Positions 41,273 through 50,027 of a stretch of DNA of 51,956 nt are shown piece by piece. The stretch spans positions 1 through 51,956 of the forward strand of contig NZ_JHVI01000026.1 in assembly GCF_000620065.1 (NCBI RefSeq), written 5' to 3'. Made by a program: the position numbers and the translations under genes. The notes under the pieces are model-generated. The model was not told the DNA's origin. It made no database searches and was given only the letters and a program-made list of their open reading frames with translations. The stretch is from Meiothermus cerbereus DSM 11376 (GTDB taxonomy: Bacteria > Deinococcota > Deinococci > Deinococcales > Thermaceae). Within the stretch, counting starts at the first letter, position 1. Each line of letters opens with the position of its first letter.

Positions 41273-43060
41273 TCAGCCGGGCTGGTAGAGTCGAGCCTGC
41301 AAGCCCCAGAGCTCGGCATAGGTTCCGCCTCGCTCGAGCAGGGCCCGGTGGGTTCCCTCCTCCACCAGGCGGCCCTCCCGCAGCACCAGAATCCGGTCGG
41401 CCATCTGCACCGAGGCCAGCCGGTGGGTGATGAGCAGCACCGTCTTGCCCTGGGCCAGCTCTGCAAAGCGTCCGTAGAGGTGGGCTTCCTCTTTGGGGTC
41501 GAGGGAGGCGGTGGGCTCGTCGAGGATCAGAAGCTCCGCCTGACGGAAAAAAGCCCGGACAAGGGCGAGCCGCTGCCACTCCCCTAAAGACAGCTCCGTA
41601 CCCCCGAAAGCTTTGGAGAGAAGAGCCTCGGCACCCAGCCGCCGCAGCAGTTCCGAAGCGCCCCCGGCGCGGGCAGCCTCTTCCAAACGCCCAAGGTCAG
41701 ATTGGTGCTCTAAATCCGCAAGGACAATGTTTTCCCGCAGCGTCAGTGCGTAGCGACCAAAGTCCTGGAACACTGCCGCCACCAGGCGCCACCAGGCCTC
41801 CAGGTCTAATTCCCGCAGGTCTACCCCATCCACCAAAATACGGCCCTGGCTGGGGTCGTAGAAGCGGAGCAGAAGCTTAACCAGTGTGGTTTTACCGGCC
41901 CCGTTCTCCCCCACAATGGCCAACCGCTCCCCCCGACGCATTACAAAGGAGATCCCCTCCAACGCGCGCCGGCCATCTGGGTAGTTAAACCCCACGTTTT
42001 CAAAGCGAATCTCCTCAAAGCCCCGCACCATTCGGCCTGCGTTTGAAGGGGCCAGCGCAGAGGAGCGGGCCAGGAAGCCCTCGAGCCGTTCGAAGTACAG
42101 AAGGCTCTCGTATAGCATGCCCCCGTCCTGCACCAAGCCGTAGAGGTTTTGCTGCAGGCTCCCCACCGACTGTAACAAGAGCACCAGGCTCCCCAGCCCG
42201 CTCGCGCCCGAGAGGGCCTGACGCAGGCCTAGGTACAGCGCTGCCGCCGTGGCCAGAGCGCTGACAAAAACCAAGCCGCTGGCCCCCAGGGCCTGCCGCC
42301 CGCGCGCGCGGCGGAGCTCTTGGTATAGCCGCCCAAAAGCCTCGAGATAGCGCCCACGGAAAAAAGGAAGCAGCCCAAACAGGCGCACCTCCTTGGCCGC
42401 CTCGGGGTTGAGCAAAGTCTCGGCATAGTAGCGCATCCTGCGGGCCTCGGGAGCGCTGAAGAGCACCGCCTCCCACACCCCTTTTTGCAACCTGAAGGTC
42501 AGCAGCGCTTGGGGCAGGGTGGCCAGCAGCAACAACAAGGGGAAAACAGGGGCCAACGTCAGGAGCAAGAGCAGCACCCCGGCCACAGCAATACCCCCAC
42601 GAAAGGCATTGCCGAAAAAAACCAACAGATTGAGCGGCTGATAGGGTGCTTGATCGCGCAGCACCTGAAGCTCATCGTAAAAACCAGCGTCCTCAAAGGG
42701 GGTGAGATCGGGCAGGCCGGCTGCTTTCTCCATCAGCAGTAGGTGTACCCGGGCGGTGAGCTTTTCGTTCACCGAACCCTGTAGGTAGGCCACCCAGGGC
42801 ACCAGCAAAAAGTCGAGGGCAAACAGCAAGGCCAGCCCTAAGAGCGGCCCTAGCAACGCAGTTGTAAAGGCGCCGCTGCCCAACCCATAGGCCAAACCGT
42901 CTACCAAAGCCCGCGTCGCGCTTAACACCCCCACCGGTATCAGGCCGCTTGCGGCAAGGAGGCCCACCAAGAGGGTGGCCTCGAGGGGGGCCGCTCGAAA
43001 AACCTGCCGCAGCGCCGGAACGATTTGGCGTAACAGGGAGCGCCTATGAGCCAGTCGCAA
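41273..43060 (-). CDS. ABC exporter, fused permease-ATPase
   Basis: 595 aa. A six-helix exporter domain (about 20-320) and an ATPase domain: Walker A VGENGAGKTT (about 389-398), Q-loop VFQDFGRY, signature LSLGEWQRLALVRA (about 495-508), Walker B LLILDEPTASLD and switch H in ITHR. The signature reads LSLGE in place of LSGGQ; the GEWQR variant is common in exporters of bacteriocins and other modified peptides. No peptidase domain is fused. It overlaps the preceding 183-aa gene by 17 bases, so both are one unit. A peptide substrate is inferred from the neighbours. Confidence 0.82.
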   Translation of the reverse strand: MRLAHRRSLLRQIVPALRQVFRAAPLEATLLVGLLAASGLIPVGVLSATRALVDGLAYGLGSGAFTTALLGPLLGLALLFALDFLLVPWVAYLQGSVNEKLTARVHLLLMEKAAGLPDLTPFEDAGFYDELQVLRDQAPYQPLNLLVFFGNAFRGGIAVAGVLLLLLTLAPVFPLLLLLATLPQALLTFRLQKGVWEAVLFSAPEARRMRYYAETLLNPEAAKEVRLFGLLPFFRGRYLEAFGRLYQELRRARGRQALGASGLVFVSALATAAALYLGLRQALSGASGLGSLVLLLQSVGSLQQNLYGLVQDGGMLYESLLYFERLEGFLARSSALAPSNAGRMVRGFEEIRFENVGFNYPDGRRALEGISFVMRRGERLAIVGENGAGKTTLVKLLLRFYDPSQGRILVDGVDLRELDLEAWWRLVAAVFQDFGRYALTLRENIVLADLEHQSDLGRLEEAARAGGASELLRRLGAEALLSKAFGGTELSLGEWQRLALVRAFFRQAELLILDEPTASLDPKEEAHLYGRFAELAQGKTVLLITHRLASVQMADRILVLREGRLVEEGTHRALLERGGTYAELWGLQARLYQPG

Positions 43061-43595
43061 CCACCTCCCGGTTTGCCTCTCTAGCCCAACGCCCAGGGTT
43101 TATGTAGTTTGAGGCAATATGGGCCCACTCTTCAGAGGTAATCGGGCAAACTTCCTCGACAATATACCTTTTCCGCATGGGCTTTGCGGAGTCGTGACGC
43201 AGGATTGCCTTATGCCCCTCAGGAACCTCTACTATCACGAAAGATTCACCTTCTTCATCCCACTCCCAAATCGGTACCCTGCCTGCCAAGGCATAAAAGG
43301 CACCCCTGTTCTCATCAAGATTTCGAGCATGCATGCTTGACGGACAAAGCCAACAAGACGTGCGGTATTTCCCGCAAGCCACTACCTCGAGGGGTCGAAC
43401 GTAGTAGCGAAACTTGTACACTTCACCAAAGAAGATCAAAGAAGGCTGCTCAAATGGATGAGCAATGTTGCCCCCTTGTGGATCAAGGACGTAGGCAAGT
43501 TCCGAGCTAGGTTCTAGACGAACAACCAGACCAAAATCGTCCCGCACTTCAACCCAACCGTTCAAAGTTCTGAGCTGGTCTCCGACGCTCAGCAC
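43044..43595 (-). CDS. Unknown 183-aa protein in peptide-export unit
   Basis: I do not recognise this family. It starts at GTG 43593-43595, six bases after the stop of a 29-codon ORF, and overlaps the ABC exporter gene by 17 bases. The protein is beta-rich at the N-terminus (GWVEVRDDFGLVVRLEP). A CWLCPSSMHARN segment (C-x2-C, about residues 82-93) could bind metal or form a disulfide. The C-terminal half is charged with several Trp residues (IWEWDEEGESF). No signal peptide or membrane helix. Base composition is lower in GC than the core genes. Its place suggests a processing, immunity or peptide-binding role for an exported peptide. Confidence 0.6.
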   Translation of the reverse strand: MLSVGDQLRTLNGWVEVRDDFGLVVRLEPSSELAYVLDPQGGNIAHPFEQPSLIFFGEVYKFRYYVRPLEVVACGKYRTSCWLCPSSMHARNLDENRGAFYALAGRVPIWEWDEEGESFVIVEVPEGHKAILRHDSAKPMRKRYIVEEVCPITSEEWAHIASNYINPGRWAREANREVVATGS

Positions 43596-43601
43596 CGTGT
43601 C

Positions 43602-43691
43602 CTACGCCAAATGTACCTCCTTCCCTCGGCGAAGAAGGATTGGTTGGTTGTTCTGGTCTTCCCAAATGATCCTGTTGATCCAGTATTTCAT
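43602..43691 (-). CDS. 29-aa ORF, possible peptide precursor or leader
   Basis: ATG 43689-43691, preceded by AAAGGGGG, opens a 29-codon frame: MKYWINRIIWEDQNNQP followed by ILLRRGKEVHLA. It is the first frame after the GGTTAC array on the minus strand and ends six bases before the 183-aa gene. It has no cysteines. It could be the substrate of the exporter, a regulatory leader peptide, or chance; coupling to the next start codon favours translation. Confidence 0.4.
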   Translation of the reverse strand: MKYWINRIIWEDQNNQPILLRRGKEVHLA

Positions 43692-43754
43692 GGCCGTAAA
43701 CCCCCTTTCACTTTTAGCCTGTACTAAAGGCACTTTCACCCTAGCACCCCCCAC

Positions 43755-43827
43755 GTAACCAAACCCCCTCTCAGAATGGTTACGTTCTTAACTCATTTTG
43801 GTTACCTTCCCTCTCATATTGGTTACC
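43755..43827. promoter_or_regulatory. GGTTAC site array, copy 1
   Basis: TGGTTACG at 43777 and TGGTTACC at 43799 and 43820 are direct repeats 22 and 21 bp apart, plus an inverted GTAACC at 43755-43760. Sites two helical turns apart on one face of DNA are typical of cooperative activator binding. The array lies between the plus-strand peptide gene (43850) and the minus-strand unit starting at 43691, where TAGGGT (43738-43743) is a candidate -10 box. Confidence 0.6.
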
Positions 43828-43849
43828 TTGCCCTTGCAAGGATGGAGGT

Positions 43850-43990
43850 ATGCGCAGGGTGAGGTGGTTTTTGTTGTTGCTGATTCTGCTGGCTTTGGGT
43901 TGGAAGGAGTTGGGCTACGCCTGCACCCGCCCCGACTGTGTTCCACCGGGGGTGGTGCGCTCGGGGGAGGCTAGCGGTACTGGGCGCTGA
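43850..43990 (+). CDS. Small secreted two-cysteine peptide, copy 1
   Basis: 46 aa: a basic start (MRRVRW), a hydrophobic core (FLLLLILLALGW), then KELGYA and CTRPDCVPPGVVRSGEASG with Cys at 25 and 30. Cleavage after GYA (Gly at -3, Ala at -1) would release a 22-residue peptide beginning with Cys. AAGGA stands seven bases before the ATG. The second copy differs at only two residues (Leu10 to Ser, Val35 to Ala), so the frame is kept. It may be a pheromone-like signal or a bacteriocin. No known family recognised. Confidence 0.6.
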   Translation: MRRVRWFLLLLILLALGWKELGYACTRPDCVPPGVVRSGEASGTGR

Positions 43991-44010
43991 GCCGCCGCAC
44001 CCAGGCCCGC

Positions 44011-44184
44011 AAAGCGGTGGCGATGCTCAACCACCTTTTGCTTGCGTTACGAGCCTTTCTGAGGTTGGAGCTGTATCGGTTGAAGACGGGAGTGAGCTGG
44101 TATGAGGCCAAGACCGCGATAGTTCGCGACGCCATCCGAACCTACCTGGCTCGTCCTATCTATGAGCTTGTCTCAACTGCGTAA
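44011..44184 (+). pseudogene. IS4/IS701-like transposase C-terminal fragment
   Basis: 57 codons, open from the junction with the direct repeat, ending in TAA: VAMLNHLLLALRAFLRLELY, then TGVSWYEAKTAIVRDAIRTYLARPIYE. This is the helical tail of an IS4-superfamily transposase. No N-terminal part is present. It marks the recombination point where copy 1 of the direct repeat ends. The remaining bases to 44297 hold only a 28-codon minus-strand frame that I could not support as a gene. Confidence 0.7.
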
Positions 44185-44297: not shown

Positions 44298-45068
44298 TTA
44301 GTGGGTTCCCAGCGTGCCTTGTCGCCGCGCGCTGCGGAGCGCACGTCGAAAGAATACAAGCCCCAGCACCAGGTACGCCAGGGCGTTGACCCCCGACAGC
44401 ACCAAGAGGCTCCACTCGGGAACCTGCTCCCGCCCAAGGATGAGGCGCAAGGCACCCACGGAGGGGGTTAGGGGCAGGAGGTAGCCGAGGTCGCCCCAGG
44501 GCCGGGCCAGGGCTTCGAAGCGGATGAGGAAAAGACCCAACAGAGGGAACTGCAAGATGCTGATGAGCTGGCCCAGCCGCTTATAGATCAAAGCCAGACC
44601 GCCTAGCAGAAGCCCCAGCCCCAGCGCGCCCAAGGCCAAGGTCAACAGCGGTAACAGAATGAGCCAATCGAAGTCCAGCCGGGCTCCCGAGACGAGGGTG
44701 ACAGCCAGGAAAAGCGGGATGTTCAAAAGGCCCATCTGCAGCAAGGAGAGTGCAGATCGCGTCAAGACCACACCCAACAGGCCAGGGCGGGTGAGGGCCA
44801 GCTGCTCCAGGATGCCGGACAAAGCCTCCTCTGCCAGGGTGGAGGCGATATGGGAGAGAAGGGAGAGGGCCAAAGTCCAGGCCAGGAGGCTCACCACCAG
44901 GGTCTCCAGGCGATCTCCGAAAAAGGCGGGGCCGGCCAGGTAACGGGCCCCGTAAATAAAGAGGGTGAAGACCATCAGCACGCCCAGAAAGCCCCCAAGT
45001 AATTCCATCGGATAGCGACTAAGAGCCTTCAAGAAGCGCCAGAGCTCTATGTAGACCCACTGGAGCAC
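44298..45068 (-). CDS. ABC-2 type exporter permease
   Basis: 256 aa with six hydrophobic segments in the ABC-2 arrangement: a cytoplasmic start MLQWVYIELWRFLKALSRYP and a final helix in VLSGVNALAYLVLGLVFFRRAL. The middle region LAEEALSGILEQLALTRPGLLGVVLTRS is the coupling segment that contacts the ATPase. It overlaps the ATPase gene by 22 bases. This type of two-protein exporter often gives self-protection against, or release of, peptides. It is the last gene of the unit starting with the 83-aa peptide. Confidence 0.83.
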   Translation of the reverse strand: MLQWVYIELWRFLKALSRYPMELLGGFLGVLMVFTLFIYGARYLAGPAFFGDRLETLVVSLLAWTLALSLLSHIASTLAEEALSGILEQLALTRPGLLGVVLTRSALSLLQMGLLNIPLFLAVTLVSGARLDFDWLILLPLLTLALGALGLGLLLGGLALIYKRLGQLISILQFPLLGLFLIRFEALARPWGDLGYLLPLTPSVGALRLILGREQVPEWSLLVLSGVNALAYLVLGLVFFRRALRSARRQGTLGTH

Positions 45069-46000
45069 GGCTTCCTCCTCTCCCTGAGTACGCGCCAGAA
45101 AAGCCCTGCTAGGGATAGGCTCTCTCGCTCCACCCGGTCAATGGGCAAGGGGTCCAGGACTCTGAGGACCTCCCAAAGGGTTTCTTCACCCACGATCCGA
45201 ACCACCCTTCCCTCCACTTCGGCCCCCAGGGCTTGCAGCCGCCCCAGGCGCAAATCGCCCTCGTCTAGGAGGAGTGCCAGCTCTATGCGGTAGACCGCCC
45301 GTGGGGAGCCTTGCAGCACCTTTTGGGTCTCTCCCTCCAAGGCCACCTCTCCCTCCAGGAGGATGGCCACCCGGTTGGCCACCGCCTCGGCCAGATCGAG
45401 CTGGTGGGTCGTGAGGAGGATCGCCTTGCCGTCTATTCCCAGCTTTAGAAGCCAGGAGCGTATGGCCTCCTGAGCCTCGAGGTCCACCCCCAGGGTGGGT
45501 TCATCCAGGAAGAGAACGGGGGGGTCGTGCACCAGCGCAGCAGCCAGGGCGACCCGCTGCTGCTGGCCTCGAGAGAGGGTGCCTACGGTCTGGTGGGCTT
45601 TATTCTGCAGACCGATCACCTCCAGGAGTTCCAGGCCCCTCCGCCGGGCCTCTTTGGGGGCGACGCCGCGCAGGGTGCCGAAGTAGATGAGGTTCTCCAG
45701 GGCGGAAAGGCGCCAATACAGGTTGCGGTTACCCTCCAGCACCGCTCCCAACCAGGTTCCCTGGCCTTCCCGCAAAAGCTCCACCCTCCCCTCGTCGGGC
45801 TCTACCAAGCCCGCCAAGATTTTGACCAGGGTGGTCTTTCCGGCTCCGTTGGGTCCCAGAAGGGTTAGGATTTCCCCCTGACGGAGTTCCAGGTCGACCC
45901 CCTTCAGGGCCTCGATCCAGCTCTTTCCCTGAGGGTAGCGCTTGCGCAGGCCGCGGGCCCATAGGGCTGGGCTAGGGGAGGACCGTACGCTCGGGTGCAT
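45047..46000 (-). CDS. ABC-2 exporter ATP-binding protein
   Basis: 317 aa. Walker A LGPNGAGKTTL (about 48-58), signature reading LSRGQQQRVALAAAL (LSRGQ in place of LSGGQ, about 142), Walker B VLFLDEPTLGVD and the switch histidine in LTTHQLD. The C-terminal 100 residues form the accessory domain usual in CcmA/DrrA-like ATPases. Seven bases separate it from the M29-like gene. It drives the adjacent permease, probably for a peptide or for resistance to it. Confidence 0.87.
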   Translation of the reverse strand: MHPSVRSSPSPALWARGLRKRYPQGKSWIEALKGVDLELRQGEILTLLGPNGAGKTTLVKILAGLVEPDEGRVELLREGQGTWLGAVLEGNRNLYWRLSALENLIYFGTLRGVAPKEARRRGLELLEVIGLQNKAHQTVGTLSRGQQQRVALAAALVHDPPVLFLDEPTLGVDLEAQEAIRSWLLKLGIDGKAILLTTHQLDLAEAVANRVAILLEGEVALEGETQKVLQGSPRAVYRIELALLLDEGDLRLGRLQALGAEVEGRVVRIVGEETLWEVLRVLDPLPIDRVERESLSLAGLFWRVLRERRKPCSSGST

Positions 46001-46007
46001 AAGCAGC

Positions 46008-46988
46008 TCACGCGACGAGGACGTCCTTCATGCCTGGGCATATGAAATCTATGTGGGCGCCTGTAACCCCGTCACCTACGGCGAAGTGGACACCGCGGGC
46101 GCCCTCATTGAGAACAGAGTTCACGCTCCAGTCGAGTTCCGAAGCCTCTAGACCAGGATTGTTGCTGATTGCCATCTCCACCAACATAAGTTCAAGCTGA
46201 GGATTGGAGAGTTCCGCTATTTCATCTGTTAAATTTGTTCCATCCGAAGATCGTACCTGTTTCACTTGAGAATTCTCAATTGTGACGCTCAGTGGGAATC
46301 TTCCATCCCTGACGAGTCCACCCAACAACTCCCATGCTCTTTTTGGAAGAATAGTGAGTGGCTCGGGCATGATTCTATGGTGTGCAATGGCGACCCCTGG
46401 AACCGTCACTTCGCCATTTACCAAAAAGCCGGGATGGAAGAAATCTTCATTATCTGGGATCATCGCTATTTCGAAGAACATACCTATAGCTTCCCACTCA
46501 CCTGGTAGCAAGCCTGCTTGTGTGCGAGGCAGCATGAGGTCTAATCCTTCCTTAAGGATAACCTCTAGCTCACCGTACATCCCCTTGAAGACAAGGCGCT
46601 TGATGTCACTGTTCTCCAAGACAGAAACCCACCTATTGTTTTCCTTAGTGGCCGCAGCGAAATCTGAAGAGGCAATCAATTTGACTGTATATTTAGCTGC
46701 CTCAAAAGAAGGATCAAAAGCAACCAGAGGCACAATAAGAACTCGGCTACTTTTGAAAAAGCGCTCTAGCTTGAAGAAAGAGAGGCCGTTGCCGGTAGTG
46801 GGCAAGAGAACTATGTTCTTGCGCCGATGTTTTGGTAAGTCGGCAACTTCATCCAGGAGGAAGGCTCCTATAGCGTGACTTTTCAGCCAGGAAGCAATGT
46901 CGATGGAGTCCGTGACTAGAAGGGGTTTAGCAGAGCCGAAAACGTGGGCCAAAGCCTGTTCTAGTTTGACCTTCAATCCTTGTTCCAT
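46008..46988 (-). CDS. M29 aminopeptidase-like protein, shortened
   Basis: 326 aa. The C-terminal half follows aminopeptidase T/M29: a NGEVTVPG strand (Glu193), SVTIENSQVKQVRSSDG, LVEMAISNNPG (Glu271), GVHFAVGDG (His301), and GAHIDFICPG (His312, Asp314). The metal-ligand order and spacing fit. But the stretch between His301 and His312 is about 20 residues shorter than in known M29 enzymes (about 410 aa), so the region expected to hold the catalytic tyrosine is missing. It may trim the 83-aa peptide, or be an inactive peptide-binding version. AGGAGG five bases upstream supports ATG 46988. GC content is lower than in core genes. Confidence 0.5.
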   Translation of the reverse strand: MEQGLKVKLEQALAHVFGSAKPLLVTDSIDIASWLKSHAIGAFLLDEVADLPKHRRKNIVLLPTTGNGLSFFKLERFFKSSRVLIVPLVAFDPSFEAAKYTVKLIASSDFAAATKENNRWVSVLENSDIKRLVFKGMYGELEVILKEGLDLMLPRTQAGLLPGEWEAIGMFFEIAMIPDNEDFFHPGFLVNGEVTVPGVAIAHHRIMPEPLTILPKRAWELLGGLVRDGRFPLSVTIENSQVKQVRSSDGTNLTDEIAELSNPQLELMLVEMAISNNPGLEASELDWSVNSVLNEGARGVHFAVGDGVTGAHIDFICPGMKDVLVA

Positions 46989-47050
46989 CACTGCCTCCTA
47001 GGATGGGACTGCAGCCGCAACACCGCAACAATAGAGCCTTATCTAAATCC

Positions 47051-47302
47051 TTAGATCCCAGCCGTACAAGGGCAGCTCACCAGGGGGGCACGGGGAGAGC
47101 CTACACCATTGGCCTGCGAAAGCCACTTGTAACTGACCGTGTAGCCGTAACCAAAAACGCCCACTATAGGCTTGTTTGAAGGTGCCTCTCCAACACTGCA
47201 AAGTGGATCGGAATAAGGCCTTGAGGTCTTCGTGTGGTGGCCCTCTGCGACGAACCTAAGCAAACGTGGGGCATTTAGCTTGAGCTCCAAAGTTTTCTCC
47301 AT
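47051..47302 (-). CDS. 83-aa cysteine-containing peptide, candidate RiPP precursor
   Basis: The first gene of the minus-strand unit, starting at ATG 47300-47302 with AGAGAGG eight bases upstream. The N-terminal third is charged and helical (MEKTLELKLNAPRLLRFVAEG), like a leader. The C-terminal part is Gly-, Tyr- and Ser-rich (VGVFGYGYTVSYKWL) and ends PLVSCPCTAGI with a CPC pair. No signal peptide. It is followed by an M29-like protein and an ABC-2 exporter, an arrangement that suggests a ribosomally made, processed and exported peptide. No known precursor family was recognised. Confidence 0.5.
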   Translation of the reverse strand: MEKTLELKLNAPRLLRFVAEGHHTKTSRPYSDPLCSVGEAPSNKPIVGVFGYGYTVSYKWLSQANGVGSPRAPLVSCPCTAGI

Positions 47303-47340
47303 CAGGATCACCTCTCTAACTTGGTTGCGACTGCAATCCC

Positions 47341-47346: not shown

Positions 47347-47364
47347 ATGCTTAGCATCCTTCAC

Positions 47365-47457
47365 GTAACCAAACCCCCTCTCAGAATGGTTACGTTCTTA
47401 ACTCATTTTGGTTACCTTCCCTCTCATATTGGTTACCTTTTGACGGTTTTGGTTACC
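47365..47457. promoter_or_regulatory. GGTTAC site array, copy 2
   Basis: An inverted GTAACC at 47365-47370 is followed by TGGTTACG at 47387 and TGGTTACC at 47409, 47430 and 47450. Spacing is 22, 21 and 20 bp. BTAD/SARP activators bind direct repeats near -35 positions, and such a regulator is encoded next door, so these are its likely sites. They lie between divergent peptide units. Confidence 0.6.
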
Positions 47458-47479
47458 TTGCCCTTGCAAGGATGGAGGT

Positions 47480-47620
47480 ATGCGCAGGGTGAGATGGTTT
47501 TTGTTGTCGCTGATTCTGCTGGCTTTGGGTTGGAAGGAGTTGGGCTACGCCTGCACCCGCCCCGACTGTGTTCCACCGGGGGCGGTGCGCTCGGGGGAGG
47601 CTAGCGGTACTGGGCGCTGA
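47480..47620 (+). CDS. Small secreted two-cysteine peptide, copy 2
   Basis: 46 aa, differing from copy 1 only at Ser10 and Ala35. Same signal-like segment and predicted mature 22-mer (CTRPDCVPPGAVRSGEASG, then TGR). AAGGA is seven bases upstream of the ATG. Its last 20 bases overlap, tail to tail, the end of the TPR/BTAD regulator gene. A short exported peptide beside a TPR regulator recalls the peptide/receptor gene pairs of RRNPP quorum-sensing systems, although the regulator family here is different. Confidence 0.6.
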   Translation: MRRVRWFLLSLILLALGWKELGYACTRPDCVPPGAVRSGEASGTGR

Positions 47621-49205
47621 GCCGCCGCACCCAGGCCCGCACCGCAGGATGGCGGGGGTCTTGCGGGGACAGGCGATGTAGGAGGGCCTCCCAGAGGGTA
47701 AGGTCGTCCGGGATTTGCTGGGCCAGGCGGTAGAGCAGCTCGAGGTCGGGGTGTTGCAGCACGGCCTCTTTGAGCTGCTCTTCGATGCGGTGGCGCAAAA
47801 GCTCGATGCCCGGGGCCTGGCTTCTGGGCAGGAGGGGGCCCTGGTAGAGGTTGAGGGCCTCGGAGAGCCGGTTTTGTTCCAGGGCTTCCTGGAGCTTGAG
47901 GAAGTCGGCCCCGATGGGGCTAAGGAGCCGGTAGGGGCGGCTCTGCACTTCCAGGCCCTGCTGGCGCAGGCGGCAGAGCTCGCTCCGGAGGGCCTGGGGG
48001 TTGGGCGTGGGGTAGAGCGCCTGGGCCAGCTTCTCCCCTTCGATCCCCTCAGGGTGGGCCAGCAGCAGGGTGATGAGTTCCAGGCTGCGGGGCCTTAGGG
48101 CAGGGTAGCCCTGGAGTTGGGCTTTGCCCAGGGTTTGCAGGTAGGGGGCGGCCTGGGTAAGCGGGAGTTCCGCCGGCAGGAAGAGGGCCCGGGCCTCGGG
48201 GCGGAGGGCCTGGGCCAGGCGGCGGTAGGGCTCGGGAAGGGGCTCCCCGTTGAGTGCACAGAGGTGGGCCACCGCCCGCAGGGCCTCCTCCGCCCCCTCG
48301 GCTTCCAGGGTGGGGAGGCTCTCCTTCAGAAGGGGGCGGGCCTCGGGCGCTGGGTAGCGGTAGAGCCCTTCGGCCAGCAAGAGCAGGGCCTGGGGCAGGG
48401 CTTGGCTGGAAGGCTGGGCTTTGGCCGCCCGCAGTCGGCGGGCCACGAGCGTCTGTTGGGAGGAATGGCCTTTGCAGAGCCGCACCAGGAGGGGCAGGTC
48501 GTAGGCCAGCAGGTGGGGGTTTGGGTTATGTTCCCAGAGGGTCTGCAGCAGTTCCGGGCTGGCCTCCCCCTGCATCCCCTGCAGCAGCAGGCTGAGCCAG
48601 AGGGCGTAGTAGCGCACCCCCGGGGACGGATGGGCCAGCAGCGGGGGGAGGGTCTGCGCCAGCGCAGCGAGGGGCTCCTCTCCGGCGTAGGCCAGCAGGG
48701 TGAGCTCCTCCAGGCGGTAGTAGGGCTGCCCGGGGGCCAGGAGGGCGGCCAGGCTGGCGTAGGAAAGAGCCTCCGCAAAGCGCCCCAGTCCCCGCAGGGT
48801 GTGGGCCAGGGCATAGGCCAGGCGAGCCTGCTCCTCGGCGGGGGCGCCCTGGGCTTGTAGCTGCTGGAAGGCTTCTCGCAGGGCCAGCAGGCCATCGGCG
48901 GGCGGGAGCGAGAGGCCCAGGTGGTAGAGCGTCAGGGGGGTCTGGGCCGCCTGGGCGGCGGCCAGGGCCAGGCGGCGGTAGGCGGCGTGGTCGCCCTGCC
49001 GGAAGGCGGCGAAGCCCAGGAGGGCCAGGCGTTCGGCGCTTTCTGTCTCCTCCCGCGGCGGCCAGGCCTCCAGCAGGGCTGCGGCCTCGGCAGGCTTTCC
49101 CAGGGCCAGCAGGGCCAGCGCGGCGGTCTTGGGCTCGCCCTGCTGCTGGGCCAGGGCCAGGGCCTCGGCGTAGTGGCCCCGATGGTAGAGGGCCAGGGCG
49201 TCCAT
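47601..49205 (-). CDS. TPR regulator with C-terminal winged helix and BTAD-like domain
   Basis: 534 aa. Residues 1 to about 340 are tandem TPR-like helical hairpins (ALYHRGHYAEALALAQQQGE; KTAALALLALGKPAEAAALLEAW; RFAEALSYASLAALL). About 366-430 is an OmpR/SARP-like winged helix (LRPRSLELITLLLAHPEGI... LRSELCRLRQQGLEV...YRLLSP). About 432-490 is BTAD-like (DFLKLQEALEQNRLSEALNLYQGPLLP), with a short helical end. In Streptomyces SARPs the DNA-binding domain is N-terminal; here it follows the TPR domain. The start is fixed by TATACT ending six bases before ATG 49205. It is convergent with, and overlaps, the small peptide gene. Confidence 0.8.
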   Translation of the reverse strand: MDALALYHRGHYAEALALAQQQGEPKTAALALLALGKPAEAAALLEAWPPREETESAERLALLGFAAFRQGDHAAYRRLALAAAQAAQTPLTLYHLGLSLPPADGLLALREAFQQLQAQGAPAEEQARLAYALAHTLRGLGRFAEALSYASLAALLAPGQPYYRLEELTLLAYAGEEPLAALAQTLPPLLAHPSPGVRYYALWLSLLLQGMQGEASPELLQTLWEHNPNPHLLAYDLPLLVRLCKGHSSQQTLVARRLRAAKAQPSSQALPQALLLLAEGLYRYPAPEARPLLKESLPTLEAEGAEEALRAVAHLCALNGEPLPEPYRRLAQALRPEARALFLPAELPLTQAAPYLQTLGKAQLQGYPALRPRSLELITLLLAHPEGIEGEKLAQALYPTPNPQALRSELCRLRQQGLEVQSRPYRLLSPIGADFLKLQEALEQNRLSEALNLYQGPLLPRSQAPGIELLRHRIEEQLKEAVLQHPDLELLYRLAQQIPDDLTLWEALLHRLSPQDPRHPAVRAWVRRLSAQYR

Positions 49206-49362: not shown

Positions 49363-49632
49363 ATGAAACACCCCGTGGTGCAACAAGCCGTACAGCTAGG
49401 GGTCAAAGGGCGCCTGGTGCTACCCGCTGGGGTGCGTAGGGTTTTACGGCTGCGGGAGGGGGATCGTCTGCTGTTGCGGCTCTGGGACGATGGGGTGATC
49501 GAGCTGGTCAAGGCGGAGGAAGTTGTGCTGGGAAGCAAGGGTCTTTTGCAACGCCTCTACCCTGCTTTGAAGGAAAAAGCGCTGGCTCAAGAGCTGATCC
49601 AGGAACGGCGCAGGGAGGCCCGGCAGGAATGA
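49363..49632 (+). CDS. AbrB-type (VapB-like) antitoxin
   Basis: 89 aa. Residues about 12-55 form a SpoVT/AbrB swapped-hairpin DNA-binding domain: LGVKGRLVLPAGVRRVLRLREGDRLLLRLWDDGVIELV. The C-terminal helix (about 60-89, rich in Lys, Glu and Arg) would wrap the toxin. ATG 49363 follows a TACGAT box by six bases, so the message is leaderless; a longer frame would start inside the regulator's upstream region. It overlaps the PIN toxin gene by four bases (ATGA). Confidence 0.85.
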   Translation: MKHPVVQQAVQLGVKGRLVLPAGVRRVLRLREGDRLLLRLWDDGVIELVKAEEVVLGSKGLLQRLYPALKEKALAQELIQERRREARQE

Positions 49633-50027
49633 GCGTGGTGCTGGATGCCTCGGCCTTGCTGGCCTACCTCAACCAGGAGGCGGGGGCCGAGGAAGTCGCT
49701 CGGCAGATGGTTGGAGGCGGCTTTATTAGCGCCGTCAATCTGGCCGAGGTTTACAGCAAGGTGACCGAGTGGGGCCAGGACGCGCACCTGCTGGAGCAGG
49801 CCCTGGTGCGGCAGGGTTTGCTGGGGGGTGTGTTGGAGGTGGTGCCCTTCGGCCCTGAAGACGTTCACCTCGTGGCAACGCTACGACCCCTGACCAAAGC
49901 CCAGGGGCTATCCCTGGGGGATCGGGTCTGTCTGGCCTTGGCTATGCGGCTGAAACTGCCAGCCATCACCACCGACAGCGCATGGAACAACCTGGAGGCA
50001 GGAGTTGAGGTGCGGGTCGTGCGTTAG
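49629..50027 (+). CDS. vapC: PIN-domain ribonuclease toxin (VapC)
   Basis: 132 aa. The four acidic PIN positions are present: D6 (VVLDASALLAYL), E40 (NLAEVYSK), D98 (LSLGDRVCLALA) and D116 (ITTDSAWNN). VapC toxins cut RNA, often tRNA or rRNA, when released from the antitoxin. It is paired with the AbrB-type gene by a four-base overlap. Its end overlaps by four bases the convergent comM fragment, showing that the module was inserted next to or into that degraded gene. Confidence 0.88.
   Translation: MSVVLDASALLAYLNQEAGAEEVARQMVGGGFISAVNLAEVYSKVTEWGQDAHLLEQALVRQGLLGGVLEVVPFGPEDVHLVATLRPLTKAQGLSLGDRVCLALAMRLKLPAITTDSAWNNLEAGVEVRVVR

Follow-up and report, generated by a model that had tools for sequence, protein, structure and literature searches.

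The locus examined here raises the question of what acts upon a short array of GGTTAC repeats in Meiothermus cerbereus DSM 11376, and to what end. The array occurs in two copies within the window, by which we mean the whole stretch of 51,956 nucleotides that was analysed (NZ_JHVI01000026.1, positions 1 to 51,956). A preliminary description, made from the sequence alone, had reported three (copy 1) or four (copy 2) TGGTTAC[CG] direct repeats at 20-22 bp spacing, plus one inverted site at a -35 position, between a secreted-peptide gene and peptide units on the minus strand. It had noted that SARP-class activators bind direct repeats at helical-turn spacing and that the neighbouring regulator carries a BTAD-like domain, had proposed that these are sites for that regulator, and held that the change in repeat number (a 20-bp unit) suggests tunable promoters. 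As set out below, the array appears to be the switch of a previously undescribed peptide-signalling circuit of heat-loving Meiothermus and Thermus bacteria, in which a putative secreted mini-peptide is paired with a protein that joins a peptide-receptor-like half to a predicted antibiotic-activator half, and which would turn on exchangeable, mostly RiPP-like gene sets. The features to which we refer are as follows.

47364..47457, no strand assigned: copy 2 operator array, with heptamers CGTAACC 47364-47370, GGTTACG 47388-47394, GGTTACC 47410-47416, GGTTACC 47431-47437 and GGTTACC 47451-47457
43754..43827, no strand assigned: copy 1 operator array, with heptamers 43754-43760, 43778-43784, 43800-43806 and 43821-43827 (last unit of copy 2 missing)
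47468..47473, plus strand: -10 hexamer (AAGGAT; TAGGGT in relatives), 10 bp after the last heptamer and 6 bp before the peptide ATG (leaderless promoter)
43838..43843, plus strand: -10 hexamer of the copy 1 peptide promoter, in the same register
47348..47353, minus strand: divergent -10 position (TAAGCA here, degenerate), 10 bp from the outer heptamer, facing the crocagin-like operon
43738..43743, minus strand: divergent -10 (TAGGGT), 10 bp from the outer heptamer, facing cargo 1
47480..47620, plus strand: 46-aa putative signal peptide precursor, a hydrophobic leader followed by ACTRPDCVPPGAVRSGEASGTGR, with conserved core CxxPxCxPPG
43850..43990, plus strand: copy 1 of the peptide gene (44 of 46 residues identical)
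47601..49205, minus strand: TPR-SARP regulator, 534 aa, with a predicted TPR superhelix (~20-334) and a predicted C-terminal wHTH-BTA SARP domain (~350-534); its 3' end overlaps the peptide gene
47051..47311, minus strand: cargo 2, RiPP-precursor-like peptide (ATG at 47302)
46008..46991, minus strand: cargo 2, CgnB/CgnE (crocagin) family protein
45047..46000, minus strand: cargo 2, ABC transporter ATPase
44298..45068, minus strand: cargo 2, ABC-2 type permease
43044..43691, minus strand: cargo 1, ~215-aa family (VGDQLRT...CGKYRTSCWYCPSS), interrupted by an in-frame TAG at 43602-43604 in this genome
41273..43060, minus strand: cargo 1, ABC exporter (MsbA/HlyB-like)
43742..44011, plus strand: duplicated control block, copy 1 (array, peptide and last codons of the regulator gene), with its counterpart at 47352-47641

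To determine whether the repeats are real, we first located every site. All of the sites that had been described exist: TGGTTAC occurs at 47387, 47409, 47430 and 47450 (plus) and at 47365 (minus) in copy 2, and at 43777, 43799 and 43820 (plus) and at 43755 (minus) in copy 1. The window contains 12 TGGTTAC against 3.4 expected, and 0 of 100 shuffles reached 12. Read as heptamers, copy 2 has five units at pitch 24, 22, 21 and 20 bp, whereas copy 1 has the first four, at pitch 24, 22 and 21 bp. A motif search of the whole genome had been named in advance as a check; searching the 3.03 Mb for three GGTTAC with 12-18 bp spacers, we obtained hits only here, and none with the reversed pattern. The observation is thus confirmed, with four corrections. 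The direct sites are pitched at 20-22 bp, but the outer, inverted site is 24 bp away. Across relatives the centre base is T, A or G, so that the motif is GGTNACC, nearly its own reverse complement, and the distinction between direct and inverted is weak. Only copy 2 faces a small-peptide gene on the minus strand, as copy 1 faces the ~215-aa gene with the in-frame TAG; this gene is open in G001 and G002 (G numbers denote genomes of the comparison set and L numbers individual loci), and the TAG reflects either decay or a strain-specific truncation. Finally, the outer site is not at a canonical -35 but lies 10 bp upstream of the -10 hexamer of the divergent promoter.

The two copies, of ~270-290 bp, are one duplicated block with 91% identity including the 20-bp unit gap. 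Copy 1 ends inside the last codons of the regulator gene and is followed by a short ORF (44017-44184; region 44011-44184) that could be a transposase remnant, although Pfam gave no support for this. No plasmid copy of the control block was found.

We next asked whether the array is conserved together with its neighbours. The peptide and the regulator are encoded tail to tail with a short overlap. The extended element GTAACCAAACCCCCNCTCAGAANGGTNAC occurs 17 times in 11 of 50 Thermaceae genomes, with none for the reversed pattern, and those 11 are exactly the genomes that have the peptide (11 of 23 non-Thermus Thermaceae; nominal p about 7e-7, a value that ignores shared ancestry). In Thermus, where the regulator is ~48% identical, paired GGTTAC at 10-11 bp occur in exactly the 17 of 27 genomes with the clade-1 regulator, with none for the control, and lie upstream of a convergent peptide gene. 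Outside Thermus, two adjacent GGTTAC at 10-11 bp are not specific, giving scattered chance-like hits in Meiothermus. A second Thermus regulator clade and a Thermaceae MAG show the same layout with different peptides; in this second clade (L161, L173, L157) the convergent peptides are very short (e.g. MQFLWLLLALLGGSGVLPQCLAPHCPPPGLGL), suggesting parallel peptide-receptor pairs in one genome. A distant regulator (37% identity) in another family (G030) has four GTAACG sites at 11 bp and a convergent ORF with a signal peptide. Across 111 genomes of the phylum, a triple GGTWAC array at 10-11 bp was found only there and in G033, where it is a short perfect 10-bp tandem repeat judged unrelated because no regulator homologue was found in that genome. 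More distant TPR-SARP paralogues (L017, L020-L023 and those in L047 and L051) show no matching peptide.

Comparison of the copies reveals two promoters with one grammar. In 15 of 15 Meiothermus/Calidithermus copies the last heptamer position is followed by exactly 10 bp, a -10 hexamer (TAGGGT in 13, AAGGAT in the two window copies), 6 bp and the start codon, although in two G002 copies that last heptamer carries a mismatch. Thermus clades 1 and 2 keep this register with other hexamers (CACCCT, CATCCT, TAGCCT), whereas the MAG has a gap of 7 and one Thermus copy (L157) does not fit. The start codon lies so close to the -10 as to imply a leaderless transcript, an inference that rests on what is generally known of this phylum. 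On the other side, the outer heptamer faces a second promoter on the opposite strand with the same 10-bp offset (TAGGGT in copy 1, variable elsewhere). A scan with the sigma-70 consensus does not find these promoters, as expected for weak -10/-35 elements, and in the window hexamers are degenerate (AAGGAT; TAAGCA). Array length changes by whole units: the TTTTGACGG unit is missing in window copy 1, the TTAACTCA unit in G008/G012/G016 and the CTCTCATAT unit in G001/G003/G006/G018. Repeat number does vary by whole units as had been suggested, but that it tunes output is not shown. Published SARP sites are direct repeats at 11 or 22 bp with the 3' repeat 8 bp from a weak -10 (PMC10936776). The repeats here are pitched at 20-22 bp in Meiothermus, at 10-11 bp in Thermus and at 11 bp (four sites) in G030, with the last heptamer 10 bp from the -10, an arrangement that is close but not identical, and that counts neither as fulfilling the published rule nor as breaking it.

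In order to assign the regulator to a family, we searched it against Pfam and NCBIfam, together with the peptide and cargo 1, and recovered nothing above threshold beyond a weak TPR; BTAD is present only below the Pfam threshold (16.8 bits vs 22.1), and a PDB sequence search with the regulator found no relative. AlphaFold2 with 16 relatives predicts a TPR superhelix and a C-terminal domain (pLDDT 91.5). Foldseek with the full-length model listed only TPR proteins, because the TPR domain fills the list, so we modelled residues 345-534 alone (pLDDT 92.7). This predicted structure, of the C-terminal 190 aa, matches the SARP domain of AfsR (Foldseek E 1.9e-6; Z 14.1, rmsd 4.0 over 183 residues, 24% identity) and EmbR (Z 12), with the next rows at Z 9 covering only the wHTH. 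The wHTH (OmpR-type) and BTA arrangement of SARP activators is thus present in the model, though after the TPR domain and not at the N-terminus, and we refer to the protein as a SARP-domain regulator and not as a classical SARP. The TPR part best matches Rap of phage Phi3T with pheromone, MalT domain III and NprR (Z about 20-21; Rap-Phi3T, NprR and AimR Z 17-21 over ~306 residues), but unrelated TPR proteins score nearly as well (TTC7B Z 19.8, APPBP2 Z 19.4), so that this resemblance is suggestive only and peptide sensing is not proven by fold. The designation of SARP-domain regulator is well supported, whereas that of peptide receptor is plausible.

The peptide has the features of a short secreted pro-peptide. 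A convergent ORF of 30-70 aa with a hydrophobic leader lies beside the regulator in Meiothermus, Calidithermus, Thermus clades 1 and 2, the Thermaceae MAG and G030, although secretion itself was not tested. Over nearly all lineages the conserved part is CxxPxCxPPG after the leader, whereas the tails vary. Codon-position bias in the peptide is modest.

The genes read away from the array, by contrast, differ from copy to copy while the control block stays, and conservation on the cargo side stops at about the -10, which marks the exchange boundary. We found a crocagin-like CgnB/E protein with a precursor-like peptide and ABC transporter (window copy 2, G002a, G006, G008, G018x); a ~215-aa family plus ABC exporter (window copy 1, G001, G002d, G007, G016); a 124-aa precursor-like protein with radical SAM/SPASM and methyltransferase (G002b, G003); a lanthipeptide-like precursor with DUF4135 LanM (G018); radical SAM/SPASM with PqqD, S24 peptidase and ABC (G012); a Cys/Gly-rich secreted peptide with ABC (G013); CPBP-like with ABC (G002c, by inspection); and radical SAM or beta-propeller with MFS (Thermus). 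Some of the Thermus cargo (beta-propeller and MFS) is not clearly RiPP. Homologues of the cargo 2 precursor-like peptide occur in G002, G006, G008 and G018, and the precursor-like peptides end in GCPCGxGI-like tails; in G008 a transposase-like gene sits inside the ABC transporter ATPase gene of the crocagin-like cassette (L052:370-1134). G002 has four modules but one full-length regulator. Two loci, G002:753107 (L067) and G018:C162:9256 (L053), have lost peptide and regulator yet keep array and intact cargo, and are possible responder-only loci. Just upstream of the regulator in the window is a VapBC-like pair (49363-50027, plus strand), a MazE-like antitoxin domain plus a PIN-domain toxin, and in G002 and G018 the cargo array has been joined directly to this region by loss of peptide and regulator.

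We consider the best explanation, in which we have reasonable though far from complete confidence, to be that the array is the bidirectional operator of a peptide-autoinduction circuit. In this view the regulator senses, through its N-terminal TPR superhelix, a fragment of the secreted peptide encoded tail to tail with it, which would leave the cell and return by an unknown route; no importer was looked for. The C-terminal SARP domain would then bind the GGTNACC heptamers and recruit RNA polymerase to two promoters, one a leaderless promoter that makes more of the peptide (positive feedback), the other a divergent promoter that drives an exchangeable cassette, usually for a modified peptide (RiPP/bacteriocin) and its exporter. 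Extra arrays without a full regulator gene (copy 1 here, three of the four modules in G002, and G018:C162) would respond in trans to the single full-length regulator. What our analysis demonstrates is the sites and their spacing, conservation and co-occurrence, the predicted folds and the cargo families, whereas binding, activation, contact with sigma/RNAP, secretion, re-import and sensing of the peptide are inferred; there are no binding or expression data. The proposal that the sites serve the neighbouring SARP-class regulator is supported: it was to be abandoned if homologous regulators lacked such arrays, yet arrays sit next to homologous regulators in three lineages and are absent where those regulators are absent. 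The preliminary description did not note that the adjacent peptide is probably the signal, that the TPR half resembles pheromone receptors, or that the divergent genes are exchangeable RiPP cassettes.

Other readings were considered. The regulator might instead sense a metabolite, a stress or a protein partner, with the small secreted peptide simply one of its outputs, for example a mini-bacteriocin. This main rival keeps the operator role and draws on the inference that the peptide gene is driven by the same array as the RiPP cargo, on the two conserved cysteines and signal peptide, which would suit a secreted antimicrobial, and on the score of MalT domain III, a sugar-responsive TPR-like domain, which is as high as that of Rap. 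We regard it as unlikely, as the peptide is tail to tail with the regulator also in Thermus and in a second Thermus regulator clade while the cargo changes, a linkage that a dedicated receptor-peptide pair explains better. Less likely still is that a different, unlinked factor binds the array and the neighbouring regulator acts elsewhere; the near-palindromic site could suit other factors, but array and regulator/peptide co-occur perfectly in two genera and again in a distant family, no arrays occur elsewhere in the genome, the geometry is SARP-like and the regulator has a predicted SARP fold. We think it very improbable that the repeats are a non-functional remnant of slippage or of a mobile repeat and the peptide ORF spurious. 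Whole 20-22 bp units are indeed gained or lost, and the block is duplicated next to deletion scars, yet heptamers stay fixed while spacers diverge, both outer sites keep 10 bp to the -10 position, three lineages retain the arrangement, and the core CxxPxC is conserved at 30-40% overall identity.

Peptide quorum sensing with cytoplasmic receptors is described from Gram-positive bacteria, and a survey of thermophiles found no convincing peptide system in Deinococcus-Thermus (PMC6022435). Our literature searches, which covered open-access papers only, found no described peptide/TPR-SARP system, and the combination appears new within that literature. If our reading is correct, this would be a peptide-communication system for that phylum, would show that the SARP activation mode is coupled to peptide sensing outside actinomycetes, and would point to a signal that could wake many silent RiPP clusters in Thermus and Meiothermus at once; its predictions (site, spacing, peptide core, regulator domain) are concrete and testable in Thermus. 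A bolder possibility, about as likely as not, is a new class of peptide quorum sensing in diderm thermophiles, in which a TPR-SARP fusion is cytoplasmic receptor and activator for a two-cysteine secreted peptide, and the fixed module of peptide, regulator and bidirectional array is a portable control unit into which different RiPP/bacteriocin cassettes are swapped, so that one regulator coordinates up to four cassettes per genome.

Of known systems, crocagin biosynthesis resembles cargo 2. A profile of four homologues of the 46008-46991 protein matched PDB entry 6zsv (E 1e-8) and, weakly, 6zsu (CgnE; E 0.39), and a small precursor-like gene (47051-47311) and an ABC transporter lie beside it. 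The precursor is longer than the 21-aa CgnA, no search was made for a CgnC-like oxygenase and no Ile-Tyr-Trp-type core was assigned, and the crocagin genome-mining paper listed homologues from Actinobacteria, Cyanobacteria and Proteobacteria, not Deinococcota (PMC10070186). With the SARP activators AfsR of Streptomyces coelicolor and EmbR, the regulator shares the predicted wHTH and BTA fold, heptamer repeats at about one or two helical turns close to a weak -10, and control, here inferred, of peptide or antibiotic-type biosynthesis. It differs in domain order (AfsR has the SARP domain at the N-terminus and a NOD between), in the 10 bp, not 8 bp, between the last heptamer and the -10, in its near-palindromic heptamer, in its partnership with a putative secreted peptide, and in its occurrence outside Actinobacteria. 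With the RRNPP pheromone receptors (Rap/Phr, NprR/NprX, PlcR/PapR, Rgg/SHP), of which the Rgg/SHP systems are reviewed together with RaS-RiPPs (PMC13361665), it shares a TPR receptor-like regulator gene next to a short gene for a putative secreted peptide, and predicted autoregulation. Its DNA-binding half, however, is a predicted C-terminal SARP domain and not an N-terminal Cro/lambda-type HTH (or the phosphatase 3-helix domain of Rap), its peptide has a two-Cys CxxPxCxPPG core, and it occurs in diderm thermophiles of Deinococcota, while RRNPP is described from Bacillota; we do not place it among the RRNPP members, though it may work like one.
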